Source: a virus | Reading direction: 5' to 3' (one strand) | Virus record (IMG/VR): IMGVR_UViG_3300021414_000003 | Coordinates: 1-58,070 of that record | DNA length: 58,070 bases | In this document: one piece after another, positions 32,246 through 51,871 of the stretch | How positions within the stretch are numbered: position 1 is the stretch's first letter | Layout: every line of letters starts with the position of its first letter | Program-made: the position numbers and the translations under genes | Notes under the pieces: model-generated | The model's input: only the letters and a program-made list of their open reading frames with translations | What the model was told of the DNA's origin: nothing | The model's database searches: none

Positions 32246-32680
32246 TTACGAGAAGTGCAGCCGAGTTGCAACATTGTTGCGCAATTTCTTTTCGAGGTCG
32301 TCGCGTGCATCCGTCAACACATCCTCGTACCGGGCATTTGGGAAGCGCCAAGCCGAAGCAATGCCCTGGCTTTTATAGATCGCCCAGCGGTGCTGCATCG
32401 TCAGGCTGTCGACCATGGCATTGACGGTCTCGCCCATCCGCAAGTCGGCGATGCGTTGCTGCGCGTGGACGTCGTGATCCACTTCCGCGTCGCTGGCCAG
32501 CTTCATGCCGCGCGAGCCTAGGTCCCGGTCGTCAACGCGCATGTAATCGCTCCAGCACGTCATCAGCTGGGCGTAAGCGTCCGGCTTGTCGAAAGCTGGG
32601 CGCGCCACTTCCTCCCGTCTAACTCGGCGAAGTTGTGGTGCGTGGATGGCGCCGAACGCAGCGCTTAGGGTCGCAGTCAT
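32246..32680 (-). CDS. Putative late antiterminator/regulator (Q position)
   Basis: 144 aa from MTATLSAAFG with GGAG upstream. A helical protein with paired Arg (QLRRVRREEV) near the start and a C-terminal region (VDSLTMQHRWAIYKSQGIASAWRF...DDLEKKLRNNV) like the sigma-like/HTH end of phage antitermination proteins. It is the last gene before the late leader and has its own terminator, exactly the Q position. Assignment rests mainly on context. Confidence 0.6.
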   Translation of the reverse strand: MTATLSAAFGAIHAPQLRRVRREEVARPAFDKPDAYAQLMTCWSDYMRVDDRDLGSRGMKLASDAEVDHDVHAQQRIADLRMGETVNAMVDSLTMQHRWAIYKSQGIASAWRFPNARYEDVLTDARDDLEKKLRNNVATRLHFS

Positions 32681-32827
32681 GGTGTGATCTCCGTATGGAT
32701 GACCTGAGATTACCATGTGCCGTCAAAAACATTGCCGTGCCCGAACTTCTTTTGCTAGCCCTGCGTTGCATATTTTTCTCATTGATAGCCAGTTATCGGC
32801 GTCTTGTGAAACTTTTTTTATAATCCG

Positions 32828-34039
32828 TTACATTTGTTTATCCTGTGGCTTCCCCAACTTCTCGAGAAGCTCCCTCAGTTTTTCACCAGTTTCTTGCATC
32901 GTCTTGACGCCGCTCGCAGGGAATTGCCTAGCTCCAGTGCCAACTTCGCTGTCTTCCGAAACTGAAATTTTGCTTAGCTCTTCACGCCGTTGCGACTGAG
33001 TCATGCTGGTATCTGCCAAAATGCTATTGTAACGGCTTCTTATTATGTCATCTTGCAAACGCAACCTATTGTTAGCGATTCCCATTCTACTCATGCATGC
33101 TGACGCCATACTTTTCGGGTCTTTGTATGCTTCAGCATCAGAGCCTTGTCCTGCAGAGTTCTCTTGATTCTTAATGTTGCCAAACTTAGCAATACAGATC
33201 TGGAGGAAGTCATCAGTAAGTGTCACATTATCGACGATATGCTGAATGACCGAAGTAATCCCACTAACATCCGCCGGAGTGCTCGCCACTTTTGTATCTT
33301 TAAGGGAGCCAGAAGTCGTAGTAACCGCTTTTTCAGGCACCATGTTCGCTATAGACTTTAAAATTCCATCATTCGATGTTTTCAGTCTAACTATATCTAC
33401 TTGCGCCTCTTTTTTCCTTTCCTCGTTTATGCCAGGCACTTTAATCTCATTCTCCAGAGAATTTATTTTCGTGAATTGTTCTTCAAATACACTTTGAAGA
33501 AACGCGATCGCTGATCCTTGGGCAGAACCCGAGGCGCTAACTAACGCTGCTGACGCACTGACTACCCCCGTCATCTGCTCGATTGCAAGCAACGCCACAG
33601 TTTGCTTTTGATAGCGCCTAATGAGCAAGCTGTATTCTGAAGCACTGATTGCCTGGTTCATATACGCTTCACATGCCCTGAAAAATTGATCGCGCAAAAG
33701 CTGAATACTCTGCGTTCGCAGACCTACGAACGCGGCGCTCTCCGCACTAGCGAATGTCGTGCTCAGCGATTTCCCTGTGGGTAGCTTCCCTTGCGCGGCT
33801 AGATCAAAAGCATAAGCAGATAAAGCATCGGGACTGGGCTCTGCACAAACTACGGGATGCGTCGTAGTCGCCCCCTGGCCCTCATCGCGCATGGTGGATG
33901 CAAATATACCACGCTGCTTTATGTCAATCAGAACGCCTTGCCCATTAGAGGTGTCTAAAGTTCGGTGAATACTATTTAAATTACCACAGCCACCAAGACC
34001 ACATCCCACAAGCATTATTGCTGCAAAACATGATCTCAT
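32828..34039 (-). CDS. AT-rich lipoprotein moron
   Basis: 403 aa. Residues 1-18 form a lipoprotein signal with lipobox LGGC (C18). A conserved-looking core (about 64-165: VCAEPSPDALSAYAF, AAFVGLRTQSIQLLRDQFFRACEAYM, RRYQKQTVALLAIEQMTG) resembles unannotated lipoproteins I recall from other bacteria. The rest is helical with coiled-coil potential. It is clearly more AT-rich than its neighbours and has its own sigma70 promoter inside the early operon, so it is probably expressed in the lysogen and changes the host envelope (exclusion or fitness). Function unknown. Confidence 0.8.
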   Translation of the reverse strand: MRSCFAAIMLVGCGLGGCGNLNSIHRTLDTSNGQGVLIDIKQRGIFASTMRDEGQGATTTHPVVCAEPSPDALSAYAFDLAAQGKLPTGKSLSTTFASAESAAFVGLRTQSIQLLRDQFFRACEAYMNQAISASEYSLLIRRYQKQTVALLAIEQMTGVVSASAALVSASGSAQGSAIAFLQSVFEEQFTKINSLENEIKVPGINEERKKEAQVDIVRLKTSNDGILKSIANMVPEKAVTTTSGSLKDTKVASTPADVSGITSVIQHIVDNVTLTDDFLQICIAKFGNIKNQENSAGQGSDAEAYKDPKSMASACMSRMGIANNRLRLQDDIIRSRYNSILADTSMTQSQRREELSKISVSEDSEVGTGARQFPASGVKTMQETGEKLRELLEKLGKPQDKQM

Positions 34040-34076
34040 GGAGTTCTCCGTTATTTGAGACTAGCTTGAACGATTT

Positions 34077-34105
34077 ATAATAGTGATGAATTGGTCTTTG
34101 CTCAA
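34077..34105 (-). promoter_or_regulatory. Moron promoter
   Basis: Minus strand TTGAGC, 17-base spacer, TATTAT, 37 bases before the lipoprotein ATG, in an AT-rich stretch; GGAGA ribosome site follows. Confidence 0.65.
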
Positions 34106-43048: not shown

Positions 43049-43654
43049 CTACTTCGAAGATGAGGCGGCAGCGCGATCCATCGCTTGGCGGGCGGTGATC
43101 TCGACCATCAGGGCGCACGCGGCGCGCTCGTTGGCCTGGGCGGCTTCCACCAATTCGTTGTGCGCGGCCAGCAGCTCCGCATGTGTTGCGGTCGACGGCA
43201 GGCTGACCAGGGCCAGCTGCGCTTCTCCGCTTTCTTTCATGACCGAGCGCAGGTGGGTCGATACGTCCAGGCGCTCGCCGACGTGGCAGCCGACTGAGCG
43301 CGCCTCGATGCCCAGCTGGCACAGCCACTGATTCAGAAAGCTCAGGCGGCCTTCCATTGGCATGGCTGCCAGGATCGAAGGCAGCATGTTCGCCGGCAGC
43401 TTCGCCTCCTGCTCGTCGTCGCCACCCAGCCAGCGGTACAGCTTCTGCGCGGCCGATTTGGCCCGGGTGTAGCAGTCCTTGTTCGCGGAATCGAATCCGA
43501 TGCCGGTCACCGCCTCGGCGCCCAGGGCCTCATGCGCCTCGGTGACGCACACGGCGACCGCTTCACGGCTCATCGAGTTGCTGCTCCGGCGCCACCCTTC
43601 GATAGTCGATCGCAGGATTTCTACCAGGGACTGATTTTGAAGATGCTGCTTCAT
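43049..43654 (-). CDS. YdaT-family protein
   Basis: 201 aa. SREAVAVCVTEAHEALG, then KSAAQKLYRWLGG and LPANMLPSILAAMPMEGRLSFLNQ, match prophage YdaT proteins (labelled toxin in some databases). These lie just after cro in many prophages and probably act as early regulators with DNA binding. C-terminal helical tail. AGGAAAAAG ribosome site. Confidence 0.8.
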   Translation of the reverse strand: MKQHLQNQSLVEILRSTIEGWRRSSNSMSREAVAVCVTEAHEALGAEAVTGIGFDSANKDCYTRAKSAAQKLYRWLGGDDEQEAKLPANMLPSILAAMPMEGRLSFLNQWLCQLGIEARSVGCHVGERLDVSTHLRSVMKESGEAQLALVSLPSTATHAELLAAHNELVEAAQANERAACALMVEITARQAMDRAAASSSK

Positions 43655-43769: not shown

Positions 43770-44084
43770 TTATGGCTTAGGTTCGCCCCCTACTGGGGAT
43801 GGGTCAGCGAGCGTCATAAGTTTGTCGCGCGAAGGCGGCGATCGCCCAGCGCGCCCGGCATCCGGCTCTGGATCAGTCGAACGACGACCAGGAGGCGGCT
43901 CAGCCAATCCGAGCTTTACGAAGACGGCAGGCCGGGCCAGTCGCAAAAAATTCAACTGTGCTTTCGGTATGCCTAATTTCCGCCAGCCCGAAACCGAGGG
44001 CGGCTGGATCTCGCAAAGGCGCGCTACTTCTGACGTCCCGCCCAGGGCGTCGATAATTTCATCGGGCGTAACATTGGGGCTCAT
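43770..44084 (-). CDS. cro: Cro-like repressor
   Basis: 104 aa from MSPNVTPDEI; an ATG two codons upstream (44090) is possible. HTH: ALGGTSEVARLCEIQPPSVSGWRKLGIP. The C-terminal 50 residues are disordered and Pro/Arg-rich. It reads away from cI across the operator region. The -10 lies right next to the start, so the mRNA is probably leaderless. Confidence 0.8.
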   Translation of the reverse strand: MSPNVTPDEIIDALGGTSEVARLCEIQPPSVSGWRKLGIPKAQLNFLRLARPAVFVKLGLAEPPPGRRSTDPEPDAGRAGRSPPSRDKLMTLADPSPVGGEPKP

Positions 44085-44090
44085 GGGCAT

Positions 44091-44150: not shown

Positions 44151-44166
44151 TTTAGGATTACCTAAT
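44151..44166. promoter_or_regulatory. CI/Cro operator 3, over the cI start
   Basis: TTTAGG-ATTA-CCTAAT; the last two bases are the start of the cI ATG, so bound protein would block cI expression. A leaderless cI mRNA is implied. Confidence 0.7.
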
Positions 44167-44884
44167 GGAACAATGGAAACTAAGACTGAAGGCAGCGCGT
44201 GAGGCGAAAGGTCTCAACAAGACCGAATTTGCAAGGGCTGTTCGTGCCTCTAACCCGACGGTCACCGACTGGGAGAAGGCCGTCATTGAAGGCGGCATTA
44301 AGGAAATCTCTGGGGTCAGACTGACGAAGGTGTGCGAGGTACTGGGGGTTGATGCATCCTGGCTCCTGCATGGCAGGGGGAGTGGCGCCGCCGCAGTTAC
44401 GCCGGCATCCACAGATCAGATTGACAAGTTAAAGCCCGTTCAAGGTCTGGATGAAGGCGACCCGACGTTCGTGCACATACCGAAAGTCCGCCTGCTCGTG
44501 TCTGCTGGGGTCAGTGGCTTCGGTGTTGAACCCGAGCCATATGATGGCGCAACTGCACCGGTGCCGACCGAGTGGCTCCAGCGGCGCCAGCTACGACCGG
44601 AGCGACTCCTTGCGACTCGGGTGCGCGGGCGCAGCATGGAGCCGACCTTCTTCGAAGATGACGCCGTGATCATCAACCTCGACGCAATAACGCCCATTGA
44701 CGGGGCGGTCTTCGTCATAAATTACGAGGGTGAAGACATAATCAAGCGACTCATGAGGGACGCCGGCGACTGGTGGCTTGAGTCTGACAACCCCGATAAA
44801 CAACGTTACCCCAGAAAGCTTTGCAGAGGCGCGGAGTGCCTCATCCTTGGCCGAGTGGTGCGCAGCGAACGAGAGCACTACTAG
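44165..44884 (+). CDS. cI: CI-type, LexA-like prophage repressor
   Basis: 239 aa. N-terminal XRE HTH (about 5-65), linker, then an S24 peptidase domain with the A114-G115 cleavage site (VSAGVSG), S157 (RGRSMEP) and K194 (DIIKR). It maintains lysogeny by binding the TTTAGG operators and should self-cleave when RecA is activated. No leader; the operator overlaps the start. A LexA-like lytic switch matches the SOS box elsewhere in the phage. Confidence 0.93.
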   Translation: MEQWKLRLKAAREAKGLNKTEFARAVRASNPTVTDWEKAVIEGGIKEISGVRLTKVCEVLGVDASWLLHGRGSGAAAVTPASTDQIDKLKPVQGLDEGDPTFVHIPKVRLLVSAGVSGFGVEPEPYDGATAPVPTEWLQRRQLRPERLLATRVRGRSMEPTFFEDDAVIINLDAITPIDGAVFVINYEGEDIIKRLMRDAGDWWLESDNPDKQRYPRKLCRGAECLILGRVVRSEREHY

Positions 44885-45219: not shown

Positions 45220-45666
45220 ATGGGTCTCGCAAAAAAGCTGGCTGTTGTTGTGATTGCTATTCCTGTCCTTCTCGTGGGCGGCTCCTACATCCGCAATAAG
45301 GCAGTTGGCCCAGAGGGATGGGCCATGGACAACACGGCGACTCGGCTGAAAGTGCACTTTAAGGATCCTGACTCGGTAGTGATCAGGTCATCCCGAACGA
45401 TCGCGAAGGTGGACCCGGAAAGCAAAGGTACCGTCATCCATATTTGCGGCTTGGTCGATGGGAAGAACTCTTTTGGGGCTTACCCCGGCGCCGTTCGGTT
45501 CGTATCGCGCAGCGTCTACAGTAAAGTCACAGATACGTTCGATACCTACTCGGTGACGGTCGAAAATCCGCTGGAAACCGCAACCGCGCATCGGATCGAC
45601 AGGCGGAGCGGTTTCGAGAAGGTTTACTGGGACCCGAACTGCGAAACCGACAGCAAGGCCACCTGA
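45220..45666 (+). CDS. Membrane-anchored exported protein
   Basis: 148 aa from MGLAKKLAVVVIAIPVLLVG; a basic start and hydrophobic helix (about 6-24) give a signal anchor. The periplasmic part has LKVHFKDPDSVVIRS and HICGLVDGKNSFGAYPGAVRFVS, a pattern I recall in small exported bacterial proteins of unknown role, plus two Cys. Located in the immunity region, so likely made in the lysogen. Confidence 0.65.
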   Translation: MGLAKKLAVVVIAIPVLLVGGSYIRNKAVGPEGWAMDNTATRLKVHFKDPDSVVIRSSRTIAKVDPESKGTVIHICGLVDGKNSFGAYPGAVRFVSRSVYSKVTDTFDTYSVTVENPLETATAHRIDRRSGFEKVYWDPNCETDSKAT

Positions 45667-45953
45667 GCCGCAGCGACGCACCAGGCTGCAGTCACTGCAA
45701 CAATTGGCGAGATTTCAAGCATTGTTAGCAGGATATACTCATCGGGCGATACAGCACACAGAGGTGCTGATTCGACGGTAAATACTACCGGTTTAGCAGT
45801 ACTTATTTCTGTCTTTAACCGCTTGATCTGCGTGGGCATCAGCAACACGGCACGATCTTCAAATAGTCTTGAAGTATCTTGATTTGAAGCAACCAGTTAA
45901 TTCGCTCAACCGATGATTCTGAATAGCAGAATATGTGAAATTTTGGAGTTTTA

Positions 45954-46958
45954 GTGAAAACAGTTAAAAACCGGAAGCAGTTATATTATAAACAGGCTAA
46001 GTTTTCGTCTAAGACTTCCGATACCCTTCAGTTGCTTCTTGAAAAGGCGCTCAAGACCTTTAAGGTACCAGACAGGAGTCAAACCATTTATGAAACGCGA
46101 ACAACCCTAGAAGATAAGACTTCGCAGGAATGGCTGCGGTTGATAAACAGTCCTCGACTCGTTTCCGGCTTCCAGTGCGGAACCTTAGTCTCCTATTCCC
46201 CTGGAATGCATCATATGGTGATTTCTATCGCCAAGTCTAACGAGGATGAACTTGACGTTTCAAAGCACCCGCCTCCTGATGGCAAGCGGTTTATGGAAGC
46301 GCCGTTGTACTTCGCAGTCCGCGACAATCATGTGGTGATTCTGCAGTCCATGTCTTTGCGAGCTGATGCATTTGAATCTCATCTAAACTGGTTACTGCAA
46401 AAAACTGGCGGGTTGCATGCCGGTGAATCCGTGCGCCTCAGCGACGCAATCCCAGGGGAGATCAGACGAAAGATTAAGAACCGTGCGATTAAGAAAATAA
46501 CGTTACAGTCGCCGTTCTTTGAATCTCAGGCGAAGGATACTATTGAGCATCGTAGTGTAACAAGCTCTATAAAGGCTGCCGCCGGGAGAGGACTTGATAT
46601 TCTTAAAGGCATCATCCCTGCGGTGCAGTACGACAAACTCGTTGCACAAGATCTTACCGACGTTAGCGATATACAGTTGAACTTGGAAATCAAAGTGGTT
46701 GGGCGGCGGCGTTCTGACAATCACGATGAGCAAGCAATGCGGACACTTATGGATGCAATACGACATGTCGACGATCCAGATTTAGTGCGCGCTGAGGTCG
46801 AAGGTATCGGAACGATTAAAGGAAGCGAGTTAAGGGTTCACGACTATCGTAACATTAAGGTAATTGATGGCATTCTAGATACTGCCGATACTTATGACAC
46901 CATGTGCACATGGGTGATAAGTTTGGTTGACAATAACCGAATATCAGGCGACCATTGA
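45954..46958 (+). CDS. RexA-like soluble exclusion protein (putative)
   Basis: 334 aa from a GTG with TGGAG before it; much more AT-rich than the phage core. Soluble, no signal peptide. A segment AGESVRLSDAIPGEIRRKI aligns by eye with the SGERVQIEPLMRG part of lambda RexA, followed in both by a beta-rich stretch and a ...D.QL.LEIKV / D.DIVIKPK strand. With a four-helix membrane protein three bases downstream and cI upstream, the layout equals cI-rexA-rexB. Homology is an inference from pattern and context; identity is low. A different two-gene exclusion system is the alternative. Confidence 0.6.
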   Translation: MKTVKNRKQLYYKQAKFSSKTSDTLQLLLEKALKTFKVPDRSQTIYETRTTLEDKTSQEWLRLINSPRLVSGFQCGTLVSYSPGMHHMVISIAKSNEDELDVSKHPPPDGKRFMEAPLYFAVRDNHVVILQSMSLRADAFESHLNWLLQKTGGLHAGESVRLSDAIPGEIRRKIKNRAIKKITLQSPFFESQAKDTIEHRSVTSSIKAAAGRGLDILKGIIPAVQYDKLVAQDLTDVSDIQLNLEIKVVGRRRSDNHDEQAMRTLMDAIRHVDDPDLVRAEVEGIGTIKGSELRVHDYRNIKVIDGILDTADTYDTMCTWVISLVDNNRISGDH

Positions 46959-46961
46959 TAT

Positions 46962-47534
46962 ATGAAATATTTAATGGCAGTCGTGGGCTCGGCAATTTCC
47001 TGGGGAATATACAAATATTTCCCCACTGCCTTTTCACAGCTCATTAAGGTTGCCGGTTTTTATGGTGGGGTGACTGCAATTCTTACGGTGCTTACAGCCG
47101 GCTGGGTCATCTGCCTTTCGAGGCTTTCGACATTTGAAAAGCTAGAGGATTTGCCAAGTGGTGGCCGAGACAGAATTATCGATTATGCCAAACGTTTACG
47201 CCGAAGAATATTGGGCACTATAACGTTAAATGTCGTTTTCGCTTTTTTGCTGTTTGTCGTCATTTTTTCCGCTCAGGTCGCCGCATTTAGTCAACTTAGC
47301 TTGGATTCAAAAATCGGATATATCATTTGTGCAACTTTGGGTTTTTGCTTAGGTGGCTCTTTAGATTCTTGGAGATGTTATAGCGCGATCGAAAGTACGA
47401 AAGAAGAGTTTATACTTGCACAAATAGAGTCAAAAGCAAGAAAAACCCTTCTTGAGAAGCTTAGAAAAGATGCTCAAGAAAAACCGGTTTCACGCGACGA
47501 CCCGCATTTGAATGGATATACCGAGAATTTTTAA
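46962..47534 (+). CDS. RexB-like four-helix membrane protein (putative)
   Basis: 190 aa. Hydrophobic segments at about 3-20, 30-52, 84-106 and 117-135 give four membrane helices; the C-terminal about 50 residues are charged, helical and cytoplasmic. Lambda RexB (144 aa) also has four. AT-rich, starts three bases after the upstream stop, so co-expressed. It could be an ion channel or membrane effector triggered by the upstream sensor. Confidence 0.65.
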   Translation: MKYLMAVVGSAISWGIYKYFPTAFSQLIKVAGFYGGVTAILTVLTAGWVICLSRLSTFEKLEDLPSGGRDRIIDYAKRLRRRILGTITLNVVFAFLLFVVIFSAQVAAFSQLSLDSKIGYIICATLGFCLGGSLDSWRCYSAIESTKEEFILAQIESKARKTLLEKLRKDAQEKPVSRDDPHLNGYTENF

Positions 47535-48493: not shown

Positions 48494-48658
48494 ATGCCGC
48501 AGACCAGCAACCGACCTACAAACGAACAGGTGCGCAGCTGGATGCAACAGCGCCAGGCAGACAGATCGCCTCCGCCGGCACCGGAGGAAATCCGGAGGCA
48601 GTTGGGCTGGGGACTGGTTGAGGCAGAGCGGCAGGCAACCGGGCAGGGAAAACGATGA
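48494..48658 (+). CDS. 54-residue first gene of the right early operon
   Basis: Starts MPQTSNRPTNEQVRSWMQQR and includes PAPEEIRRQLGW; AGGAG ribosome site. Arg/Gln-rich and helical. As the first gene after a CI-controlled promoter it sits where lambda N is, but no Arg-rich RNA-binding motif of N type is clear. ATGA coupling to the next gene. Confidence 0.65.
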   Translation: MPQTSNRPTNEQVRSWMQQRQADRSPPPAPEEIRRQLGWGLVEAERQATGQGKR

Positions 48659-49788
48659 AGACCACAAAACCACAGGGGAACCACATGGAAAAGCAGGAAG
48701 CTGCAGCGGCACCCGCCGAGCAAGAAACGATCACCTCATACAAGGGGTTCGACAGCAATTGGCAATGCCGCGGCTTCCAGTACGCGCTCGGTCAGACCGT
48801 GGTTCACGATGGCGACGTCGAGGCCTGTGCATCGGGCTTCCATGCATGCGAGTACCCGCTCGACGTCTTCAGCTACTACGAGCCGTCCACCAGCAAGTTC
48901 GCCGTGGTCGAGCAGTCGGGCCAATTGAGCCGCCATAGCGACGACACGAAGGTGGCTAGCAAGACGCTGACCGTGAAAGCCGAAATCAACCTGCCAGGCC
49001 TGATCAAGGCGGCGATCGAATACACGGTCAAGCGCTGCGCACCGATCGACAAGGCTTCGCCGGCATATTCCGAGAGCGAGCGTGGCGCGGCCAGCAGCAC
49101 CGGCTACGGTGGCGCGGCCAGCAGCACCGGCTACGGTGGCGCGGCCAGCAGCACCGGCACCCGTGGCGCGGCCAGCAGCACCGGCGACGGTGGCGCGGCC
49201 AGCAGCACCGGCTACGGTGGCGCGGCCAGCAGCACCGGCGACGGTGGCGCGGCCAGCAGCACCGGCTACGGTGGCGCGGCCAGCAGCACCGGCTACGGTG
49301 GCGCGGCCAGCAGCACCGGCGACGGTGGCGCGGCCAGCAGCACCGGCTACGGTGGCGCGGCCAGCAGCACCGGCGACGGTGGCGCGGCCAGCAGCACCGG
49401 CTACGGTGGCGCGGCCAGCAGCACCGGCGACGGTGGCGCGGCCAGCAGCACCGGCTACGGTGGCGCGGCCAGCAGCACCGGCTACGGTGGCGCGGCCAGC
49501 AGCACCGGCGACGGTGGCGCGGCCAGCAGCACCGGCTACGGTGGCGCGGCCAGCAGCACCGGCTACGGTGGCGCGGCCAGCAGCACCGGCAAGCACGCGG
49601 TCGCGATGGCGTGCGGCTACGAAGGCCGGGCAATGGCTGGCGAAACCGGCGCGATCGTGCTGGCTCACCGTAACGATGACGGCGTCCTGGTGCACATCCG
49701 TGCGAGCAAAGTCGGTGAGAACGGCATCAAGGCAGGCGCCTGGTACCAACTCAACGTCGACGGTCAATTCGTGGAGTGCGCAGCGTGA
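48655..49788 (+). CDS. DUF7666-like protein with 19 nonapeptide repeats
   Basis: 377 aa. Residues about 25-135 form the N-terminal domain (YKGFDSNWQCRGFQY, ACASGFHACEYPLDVFSYY). Residues 144-314 are 19 units of GAASSTGYG or GAASSTGDG. The C-terminal cap reads HAVAMACGYEGRAMAGETGAIVLAHRN, then GIKAGAWYQL. The repeats should form a beta-solenoid with stacked Tyr/Asp, like ice-nucleation-type repeats. Phages often carry such proteins; the role is unknown. No signal peptide. Confidence 0.8.
   Translation: MKTTKPQGNHMEKQEAAAAPAEQETITSYKGFDSNWQCRGFQYALGQTVVHDGDVEACASGFHACEYPLDVFSYYEPSTSKFAVVEQSGQLSRHSDDTKVASKTLTVKAEINLPGLIKAAIEYTVKRCAPIDKASPAYSESERGAASSTGYGGAASSTGYGGAASSTGTRGAASSTGDGGAASSTGYGGAASSTGDGGAASSTGYGGAASSTGYGGAASSTGDGGAASSTGYGGAASSTGDGGAASSTGYGGAASSTGDGGAASSTGYGGAASSTGYGGAASSTGDGGAASSTGYGGAASSTGYGGAASSTGKHAVAMACGYEGRAMAGETGAIVLAHRNDDGVLVHIRASKVGENGIKAGAWYQLNVDGQFVECAA
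49084..49596 (+). repeat. 19 x 27-bp tandem repeat
   Basis: Unit ggcgcggccagcagcaccgg plus c(t/g)acggt; almost identical copies, in frame. The only frequent change is TAC/GAC (Tyr/Asp), with one ACC-CGT unit (third) and a final AAG-CAC. Likely to expand or contract by recombination. Confidence 0.95.
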
Positions 49789-50977: not shown

Positions 50978-51871
50978 ATGTTCAAGAATCTCCAGTTGTA
51001 CCGCCTCCCCGCCCCATGGCCGATGACCGCCGCGACGCTCGAGCAGGCGATCACCCCGCAGGCCTTCACGCCGGCGTCGAGCAACGAGCTTTCGCGCCAG
51101 GGCTGGGTGGCGCCGCGCGACGGTGGCGACCTGGTACACAACGTCGCCGGCCAGTTCCTTCTGACGCTCAAAATTGAGAAGAAGGTGATGCCGGCCGCCG
51201 CGGTGGATGCCGTGGCGAAGGCGAAAGCCGCCGAGATGGAAGAGCAGCAAGGCTTCCCGCCCGGGAAGAAGGCGATGAAGGACCTGAAGGAGCGCGCCGC
51301 CGAAGAGATGCTGCCGCGCGCGTTCACGATCCCGTCCCATACGAGCATCTGGATCGACCCGATCAACGGCTGGCTGGCGGTCGACGCTGCGAGCCCCGCC
51401 AAAGCCGACGACGTCGTGAAGATGCTGCTCAAGACGGTCGACCGCATGCCGCTCGAATCGCTGCGCGTGCAGAGATCCCCGGTAGCGGTAATGACGGGCT
51501 GGCTGGAAACCGATGAGGCGCCGGCCGGCTTCACGGTCGACCAGGACACCGAGCTGCGCGCCACCGGTGAAAGCCGCGCCGCGGTGCGCTTCGTGAAGCA
51601 CTCCCTGGATCCTGCTGACGTCGGTCGCCACATCGCCGCCGGCAAGCAGTGCACGCGCCTGGCGATGACCTGGAACAGTCGGATCTCGTTCGTACTGACC
51701 GAATCACTGGCGATCAAGAGCATCAAGCCGCTCGACATCCTGAAGGAGGGTGCGCCGGGCGGGGCGAACGACGTCGAGCGCTTCGACAACGACTTCGCCC
51801 TGATGGCCGGTGAATACGCGCAGATGCTGGCCGACCTGGTCGAGGCCCTGGGCGGCGAGGTACGCCCGTGA
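50978..51871 (+). CDS. rdgC: RdgC-family recombination-associated protein
   Basis: 297 aa, near the E. coli RdgC length. Starts MFKNLQLYRL as in the family, with GWVAPRDGG, KAMKDLKERAAEEMLPRAF and a C-terminal FDNDFALM. RdgC forms a ring on DNA and limits RecA. In this phage it occupies the place of recombination genes and may shape replication or protect phage ends. Confidence 0.92.
   Translation: MFKNLQLYRLPAPWPMTAATLEQAITPQAFTPASSNELSRQGWVAPRDGGDLVHNVAGQFLLTLKIEKKVMPAAAVDAVAKAKAAEMEEQQGFPPGKKAMKDLKERAAEEMLPRAFTIPSHTSIWIDPINGWLAVDAASPAKADDVVKMLLKTVDRMPLESLRVQRSPVAVMTGWLETDEAPAGFTVDQDTELRATGESRAAVRFVKHSLDPADVGRHIAAGKQCTRLAMTWNSRISFVLTESLAIKSIKPLDILKEGAPGGANDVERFDNDFALMAGEYAQMLADLVEALGGEVRP

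Follow-up and report, generated by a model that had tools for sequence, protein, structure and literature searches.

RexAB of phage lambda has been described as the first abortive-infection system; its trigger is still listed as unknown, and by 2026 the Rex-like systems on record numbered only five (PMC12894663). Lambda RexA binds DNA non-specifically and biases the CI/Cro switch (PMC11077077). The RexABpp system of Pseudomonas putida (PP_5643/PP_5644), encoded downstream of cI, combines a soluble DNA-binding protein of RexA fold (37.5 kDa with its tag) with a partner that contains four transmembrane (TM) segments. This pair defends against phages, both genes are required, and over-expression of RexA causes growth arrest and membrane damage that depend on RexBpp; the cI promoter is unaffected by P. 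putida RexA (PMC12894663). In the Sbash pair (gp30/gp31), defence is abolished by the substitutions R70A and D73A, which lie in the loop that joins helices 2 and 3 of gp31 (PMC6426596). Here we describe a two-gene locus, A-B, in viral DNA of 58,070 nucleotides (IMG/VR record IMGVR_UViG_3300021414_000003, hereafter the window). With a probability of roughly three in four, we conclude that A-B works like a diverged two-component exclusion (abortive-infection) system of the RexAB type. The best explanation of the data is that the pair belongs to the Rex-type class by fold, layout and topology, and not by sequence, from which we infer its role in exclusion.

The structural evidence comes from a model of protein A. 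AlphaFold2, supplied with an alignment of 34 relatives, returned a structure with a predicted local distance difference test score (pLDDT) of 78.4 and a predicted template modelling score (pTM) of 0.77. When this model was compared by Foldseek with 350,542 chains of the PDB, lambda RexA (8twq) was the sole match below E=0.001 (E=1.9e-5, probability 1.00; 348 alignment columns, target 279 aa). The runner-up was 8ovw_N (E=7e-3, probability 0.33), a chain of the yeast CCAN complex, which we take to be Chl4. Chl4 and Iml3 of this complex are themselves structural relatives of RexA and RdgC (PMC11077077). Searching BFVD with the same model returned uncharacterised phage proteins. As modelled, A has the two-domain fold of RexA, and on this structural ground it is assigned to the RexA-fold superfamily, not to PF15969, which is defined by sequence. 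The isoelectric point of A (8.7) says little about DNA binding.

The second line of evidence is that A does not travel alone. We collected loci by tblastn and profile searches, from Escherichia phage Perceval, Shigella SfIV, Acinetobacter phages and a prophage on a Klebsiella plasmid; one IMG/VR scan gave 157 tblastn-confirmed loci, of which 80 were kept, and GTDB added 11. A search of IMG/VR with window A as the only query found no relatives, and an alignment query was needed. The resulting set comprises 97 loci that carry A, the window included and near-identical loci counted. In 94 of these, a B-type open reading frame (ORF) lies directly downstream, nearly always 160-195 aa long with 3-4 TM segments. 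At L018 and L088 the B sequence is present in frame and was missed by the ORF rule, and the contig of L081 ends inside A. Hence, a B-type membrane protein follows A immediately in 96 of the 96 loci that are not cut by a contig end. Pairing is equally complete in 34 non-redundant loci, at a background of only 5.4% of comparable ORFs from the surveyed loci with at least three TM segments.

The same pair occupies very different places. About 28 of the 97 loci follow a cI-type repressor, as in coliphage Perceval, where A-B sits directly after cI at the position of lambda rexAB. Another 36 adjoin Q or RusA, 18 of which are flanked opposite by detected lysis genes, and the remaining 33 lie elsewhere, including head and tail regions and the vicinity of other regulators of the helix-turn-helix (HTH) type. 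A Psychrobacter pair (L098:3818-8094) is found 0.4 kb upstream of hsdM, a type I restriction-modification gene, in a setting that resembles a defence island; another (L097) adjoins an S-type pyocin gene, and an Acinetobacter homologue carries the annotation 'DefenseFinder protein'. L008, the closest relative of the window pair, was found away from any repressor. To judge by reading of the sequence, it lies between what are presumably an effector cluster resembling a type VI secretion system and P2-like portal and terminase genes. Since the same two genes recur next to cI, Q and lysis genes, head and tail regions and hsdM, A-B is a portable two-gene cassette, co-inherited and mobile as a unit. 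The sequence-only reading, made earlier from the letters of the window, had named homologues occurring separately and away from repressors as a finding that would speak against it; they are indeed often away from cI-type repressors, and never separate. In a Pseudomonas prophage (L124:1411-3739), cI is followed by a small CsrA-like gene and then by A and B.

The model of protein B, built with an alignment of 36 relatives, consists of four long helices (residues 2-19, 31-59, 66-107 and 113-173; pLDDT 88.2), in agreement with the four-helix membrane protein proposed from sequence alone, although hydropathy resolves three clear TM segments and one weak one. Positive charge is concentrated in the central loop and the C-terminus, which suggests that both termini and this loop are cytoplasmic. 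Window B itself matched no entry in any library; its relatives fall into phrog_16807 and phrog_4510, both labelled 'unknown function'. The B proteins are nevertheless homologous to one another: 43 of 46 non-redundant sequences form one BLAST cluster, to which the window and L008 pair is weakly joined. Window B shares 32% identity with its L008 counterpart and weak similarity with other B proteins. Apart from Met1, conservation in the family peaks in the central loop (consensus L...E.RRL) and in the C-terminal cytoplasmic helix (F......R....K), while the membrane segments are less conserved. B found no match to the RexB families PF15968 and phrog_14878, and neither BLASTP nor profile comparison related it to RexB. 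A BFVD fold search, in which simple helical bundles score poorly, returned no match with an E-value under 0.001, and RexB was absent from the 50 matches listed. By its model, B would have the topology of RexB without a demonstrable relationship to it. Of the structural comparisons with RexA and RexB that had been suggested as a check, the one for A came out positive.

By sequence, A shows no significant relation to lambda RexA either. Window A is a clear member of phrog_3482, a family labelled 'unknown function' with relatives in Escherichia phage Perceval, Shigella SfIV, Acinetobacter Ab1656-2 and Klebsiella. It is a divergent member, with about 20-30% identity to most others and 42% to L008. 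We obtained no significant match to window A in Pfam, NCBIfam or PADLOC, and a sequence search of the PDB was empty as well. Neither Pfam nor PHROGs connected A with the RexA families PF15969 and phrog_12654, BLASTP against lambda RexA returned nothing, and hhalign gave nothing significant against RexA alignments comprising 2, 9 or 10 sequences, used either entire or cut down to the matching segment. The resemblance to RexA first noticed in the segment AGESVRLSDAIPG shares this lack of significance (hhalign P=0.34-0.66); what survives of it is that the best local hhalign register sets AGESVRLSDAIPG opposite SGERVQIEPLMRG of RexA, and that the fold match is compatible with this register. A possible bridge leads through two diverged Pseudomonas pairs of a soluble and a membrane protein (L125:983-2400 and L127:956-2457). 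Profiles link them to A (probability 94%; score 59.4, where shuffles reach at most 26) and do not link them onward to RexA. By eye, L125 appears to adjoin a tRNA gene.

The features of the window locus are collected in Table 1. The sequence-only reading had described two AT-rich genes for proteins of 334 and 190 aa, three bases apart, and these particulars were confirmed. Both genes lie on the plus strand with a spacer of 3 nt; the guanine-cytosine (GC) content of the window is 62.1%, that of A 46.6% and that of B 41.9%, and in a scan of the 58 kb the stretches of 1,581 bp with the least GC coincide with the pair. Relative to L008, codon positions 1/2/3 differ by 46/34/68% in A and by 56/37/76% in B. 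Because changes at the third position dominate, both genes are coding. The pair had also been placed downstream of cI on the same strand. This description holds, except that the two are not immediate neighbours: 1,069 nt separate the end of cI from the start of A, and the phrog_2320 gene lies between them. This gene probably stands outside the module, since we found no relative of it in other A-B loci. A scan for promoters and terminators, which provides weak evidence, showed no plus-strand terminator-like site between cI and A, nor any strong promoter upstream of A. Transcription that reads through from the cI operon would probably be what expresses this prophage's pair in the lysogen.

Table 1. 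Positions of the A-B pair and adjacent features in the window
Feature	Position	Strand	Description	Evidence
Gene A	45954..46958	+	334 aa, GTG start; predicted soluble protein of RexA-like fold, putative DNA-binding sensor	phrog_3482 E=6e-41; AlphaFold2; Foldseek
Gene B	46962..47534	+	190 aa, ATG start; four-helix inner-membrane protein, putative effector	AlphaFold2; pairing survey
Ribosome-binding site GGAG	45945..45948	+	5 nt before the GTG of gene A	read from sequence
B central cytoplasmic loop (predicted)	47118..47213	+	residues 53-84	column conservation; equivalent loop of Sbash gp31 needed for defence (PMC6426596)
CI-like repressor (HTH and S24 peptidase domain)	44165..44884	+		Pfam Peptidase_S24 E=2e-17, HTH_3 E=3e-7; phrog_4 transcriptional repressor E=2.6e-37
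Cro-like regulator, divergent from cI	43770..44090	-		weak P22_Cro match E=4.9e-4, below Pfam cut-off
Small membrane-anchored protein gene between cI and A	45220..45666	+		phrog_2320 E=1.7e-9

How may such a pair work? Published Rex-type pairs and the conservation of the loop and helix in the B family supply a model in which A senses and B acts. A probably dimerises and binds DNA non-specifically. Upon infection by another phage it would monitor intermediates of replication or recombination, or else a phage protein attached to them. In the lysogen, B would reside silently in the inner membrane until activated A contacts its charged central loop and C-terminal helix from the cytoplasmic side. 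B may then open or oligomerise into a pore that permeabilises the membrane, and growth would be arrested before the infecting phage matures.

Several observations weigh against this interpretation. There is no significant sequence link between A and RexA or between B and RexB, and in the comparison of A with RexA 3 of 149 shuffles reach an equal score. The full-length TM-score of A against 8twq is only 0.35-0.40 with a root-mean-square deviation of 16.8, so that it is the local 3Di+AA score, and no global superposition, that carries the match to RexA. Window B retains only part of the family consensus in the loop and helix, with G68 and A153 at positions where 34 of 36 sequences carry E and R; because several such residues are missing, the window copy of B could have drifted. 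Since most homologues lie outside cI operons, sharing a transcript with the repressor is not general either. Finally, we found no experiment on any member of phrog_3482. Two considerations bear on these points. The crystal structure of RexA represents a closed form, and both open and closed RexA have been proposed (PMC11077077); the high deviation would fit a different orientation of the two domains in A. Furthermore, CarolAnn gp44/gp43 showed no significant similarity to the family profiles of A and B. As this experimentally accepted Rex-like pair is equally invisible to small profiles, the negative sequence result leaves the broader Rex class possible for A-B.

The roles of the two proteins could also be reversed, with A as the antiviral and toxic agent and B as a tether that silences A at the membrane until infection frees it. 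The pair gp30/gp31 of mycobacteriophage Butters is described in this way (PMC12894663), and the large charged cytoplasmic surface of B together with its long C-terminal helix could hold A. The same source describes the membrane protein as the effector in RexABpp, lambda and CarolAnn/Sbash (PMC12894663), and B resembles these effectors in having four helices. We consider a reversal unlikely. Slightly less probable still is that the pair mainly tunes its own lysis-lysogeny switch, with A acting on the repressor region and exclusion being secondary or absent. The published effect of lambda RexA, a DNA-binding protein, on the CI/Cro switch (PMC11077077) and the proximity of the window pair to cI would agree with such a function. 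Yet about 70% of the family loci are not beside a cI-type repressor, including those in head and tail regions and next to hsdM, B is always kept, and RexA of P. putida has no effect on the cI promoter (PMC12894663). Mobility as a unit with no tie to the repressor speaks for defence rather than for a role in the lysogenic switch.

The survey speaks equally to the two readings that separate A from B. On its own, B might act in the membrane, either as an exclusion protein or in the manner of a holin, and so prevent the entry of DNA or lyse cells, next to an unrelated regulator A. The only pointer in this direction is a B homologue in L007 annotated 'holin-x', an annotation whose Pfam match falls below the cut-off (E=0.088). 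With A always present and related in fold to RexA, and with many copies encoded on the other strand from the holin and lysin genes of their phage, this interpretation is improbable. That A and B are chance neighbours without joint function has nothing in its favour besides the missing annotation; A is paired with B in every one of the 96 loci that allow the test, and these span five or more genomic settings, which makes it hardly credible, and the neighbour survey refutes it as far as computation can. Exclusion of the Rex type is the reading we retain, and the A-B family most likely represents widespread, unannotated pairs that stop the growth of other phages in the host cell. In light of the fold match of A and the invariant pairing, the original wording, 'a diverged or analogous exclusion system', was well chosen.

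The phage in the window encodes an integrase, a lambda-type tail tip protein J, a tape measure protein, portal, terminase and capsid. Its terminase is closest to one unannotated metagenomic record and then to those of Bordetella and Burkholderia phages, which renders plausible the previously suggested betaproteobacterial origin and agrees with a temperate siphophage. It also encodes RdgC (50978-51871, plus strand; PF04381, E=2.5e-103). Because RexA is a published structural relative of RdgC, two predicted proteins of the RexA/RdgC fold class may lie within 5 kb in this phage. An ORF adjoining the Cro-like gene (43049-43654, minus strand) matches YdaT_toxin (PF06254) above the Pfam cut-off and is possibly the equivalent of the CII regulator. 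Elsewhere in the window are a DUF7666 protein containing an extended tract of GAASSTG[YD]G-type repeats (48655-49788, plus strand) and another AT-rich island (32500-34100, GC about 0.47), in which an ORF of 403 aa (32828-34039, minus strand) has no PHROG match.

Compared with lambda, the likeness of A-B lies in a soluble protein followed by a four-helix membrane protein in the same order, on the same strand and downstream of cI. The differences are the absence of detectable sequence similarity, the sizes (279 aa for RexA against 334 for A; 144 aa for RexB against 190 for B, which has a long C-terminal cytoplasmic helix), the extra gene between cI and A in the window, and the location of most A-B relatives away from cI. 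In the searched sequences we also observed RexA-RexB-like pairs with sequence similarity to lambda RexAB on small mobilizable plasmids of E. coli (L114:101-1382, 3.3 kb) and Yersinia ruckeri (L116:458-1716, 5.2 kb), and in a Pseudomonas genome (L128:1023-2337) a protein that matches the RexA alignment at E=1.4e-60 and is encoded, together with a RexB-like partner, after a CI-like gene. The CarolAnn (gp44/gp43) and Sbash pairs share with A-B a RexA-like soluble protein and a four-TM protein with an important central cytoplasmic loop, and the CarolAnn pair is co-transcribed with the repressor; they differ in belonging to phages of actinobacterial hosts. RexABpp, which we compared by description only, resembles A-B in a RexA-fold protein of similar size, a four-TM partner, a position downstream of a CI-like gene with intervening genes, and detection by remote homology, not by BLAST; for RexABpp, defence has been shown.

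Relative to these systems, the new element is a lineage, large and so far unannotated, whose members travel as a cassette independently of cI. Tying phrog_3482, a family without assigned function, to the RexA fold provides many natural variants for comparing the signals to which different Rex-type sensors respond, some of them in prophages of E. coli, Shigella and Acinetobacter. It is an even call whether phrog_3482-type pairs form a large, unrecognised second Rex-type branch of mobile defence cassettes that pass between prophage hot spots independently of cI, with a membrane effector family of their own, in which case lambda rexAB would be the special, repressor-linked case.
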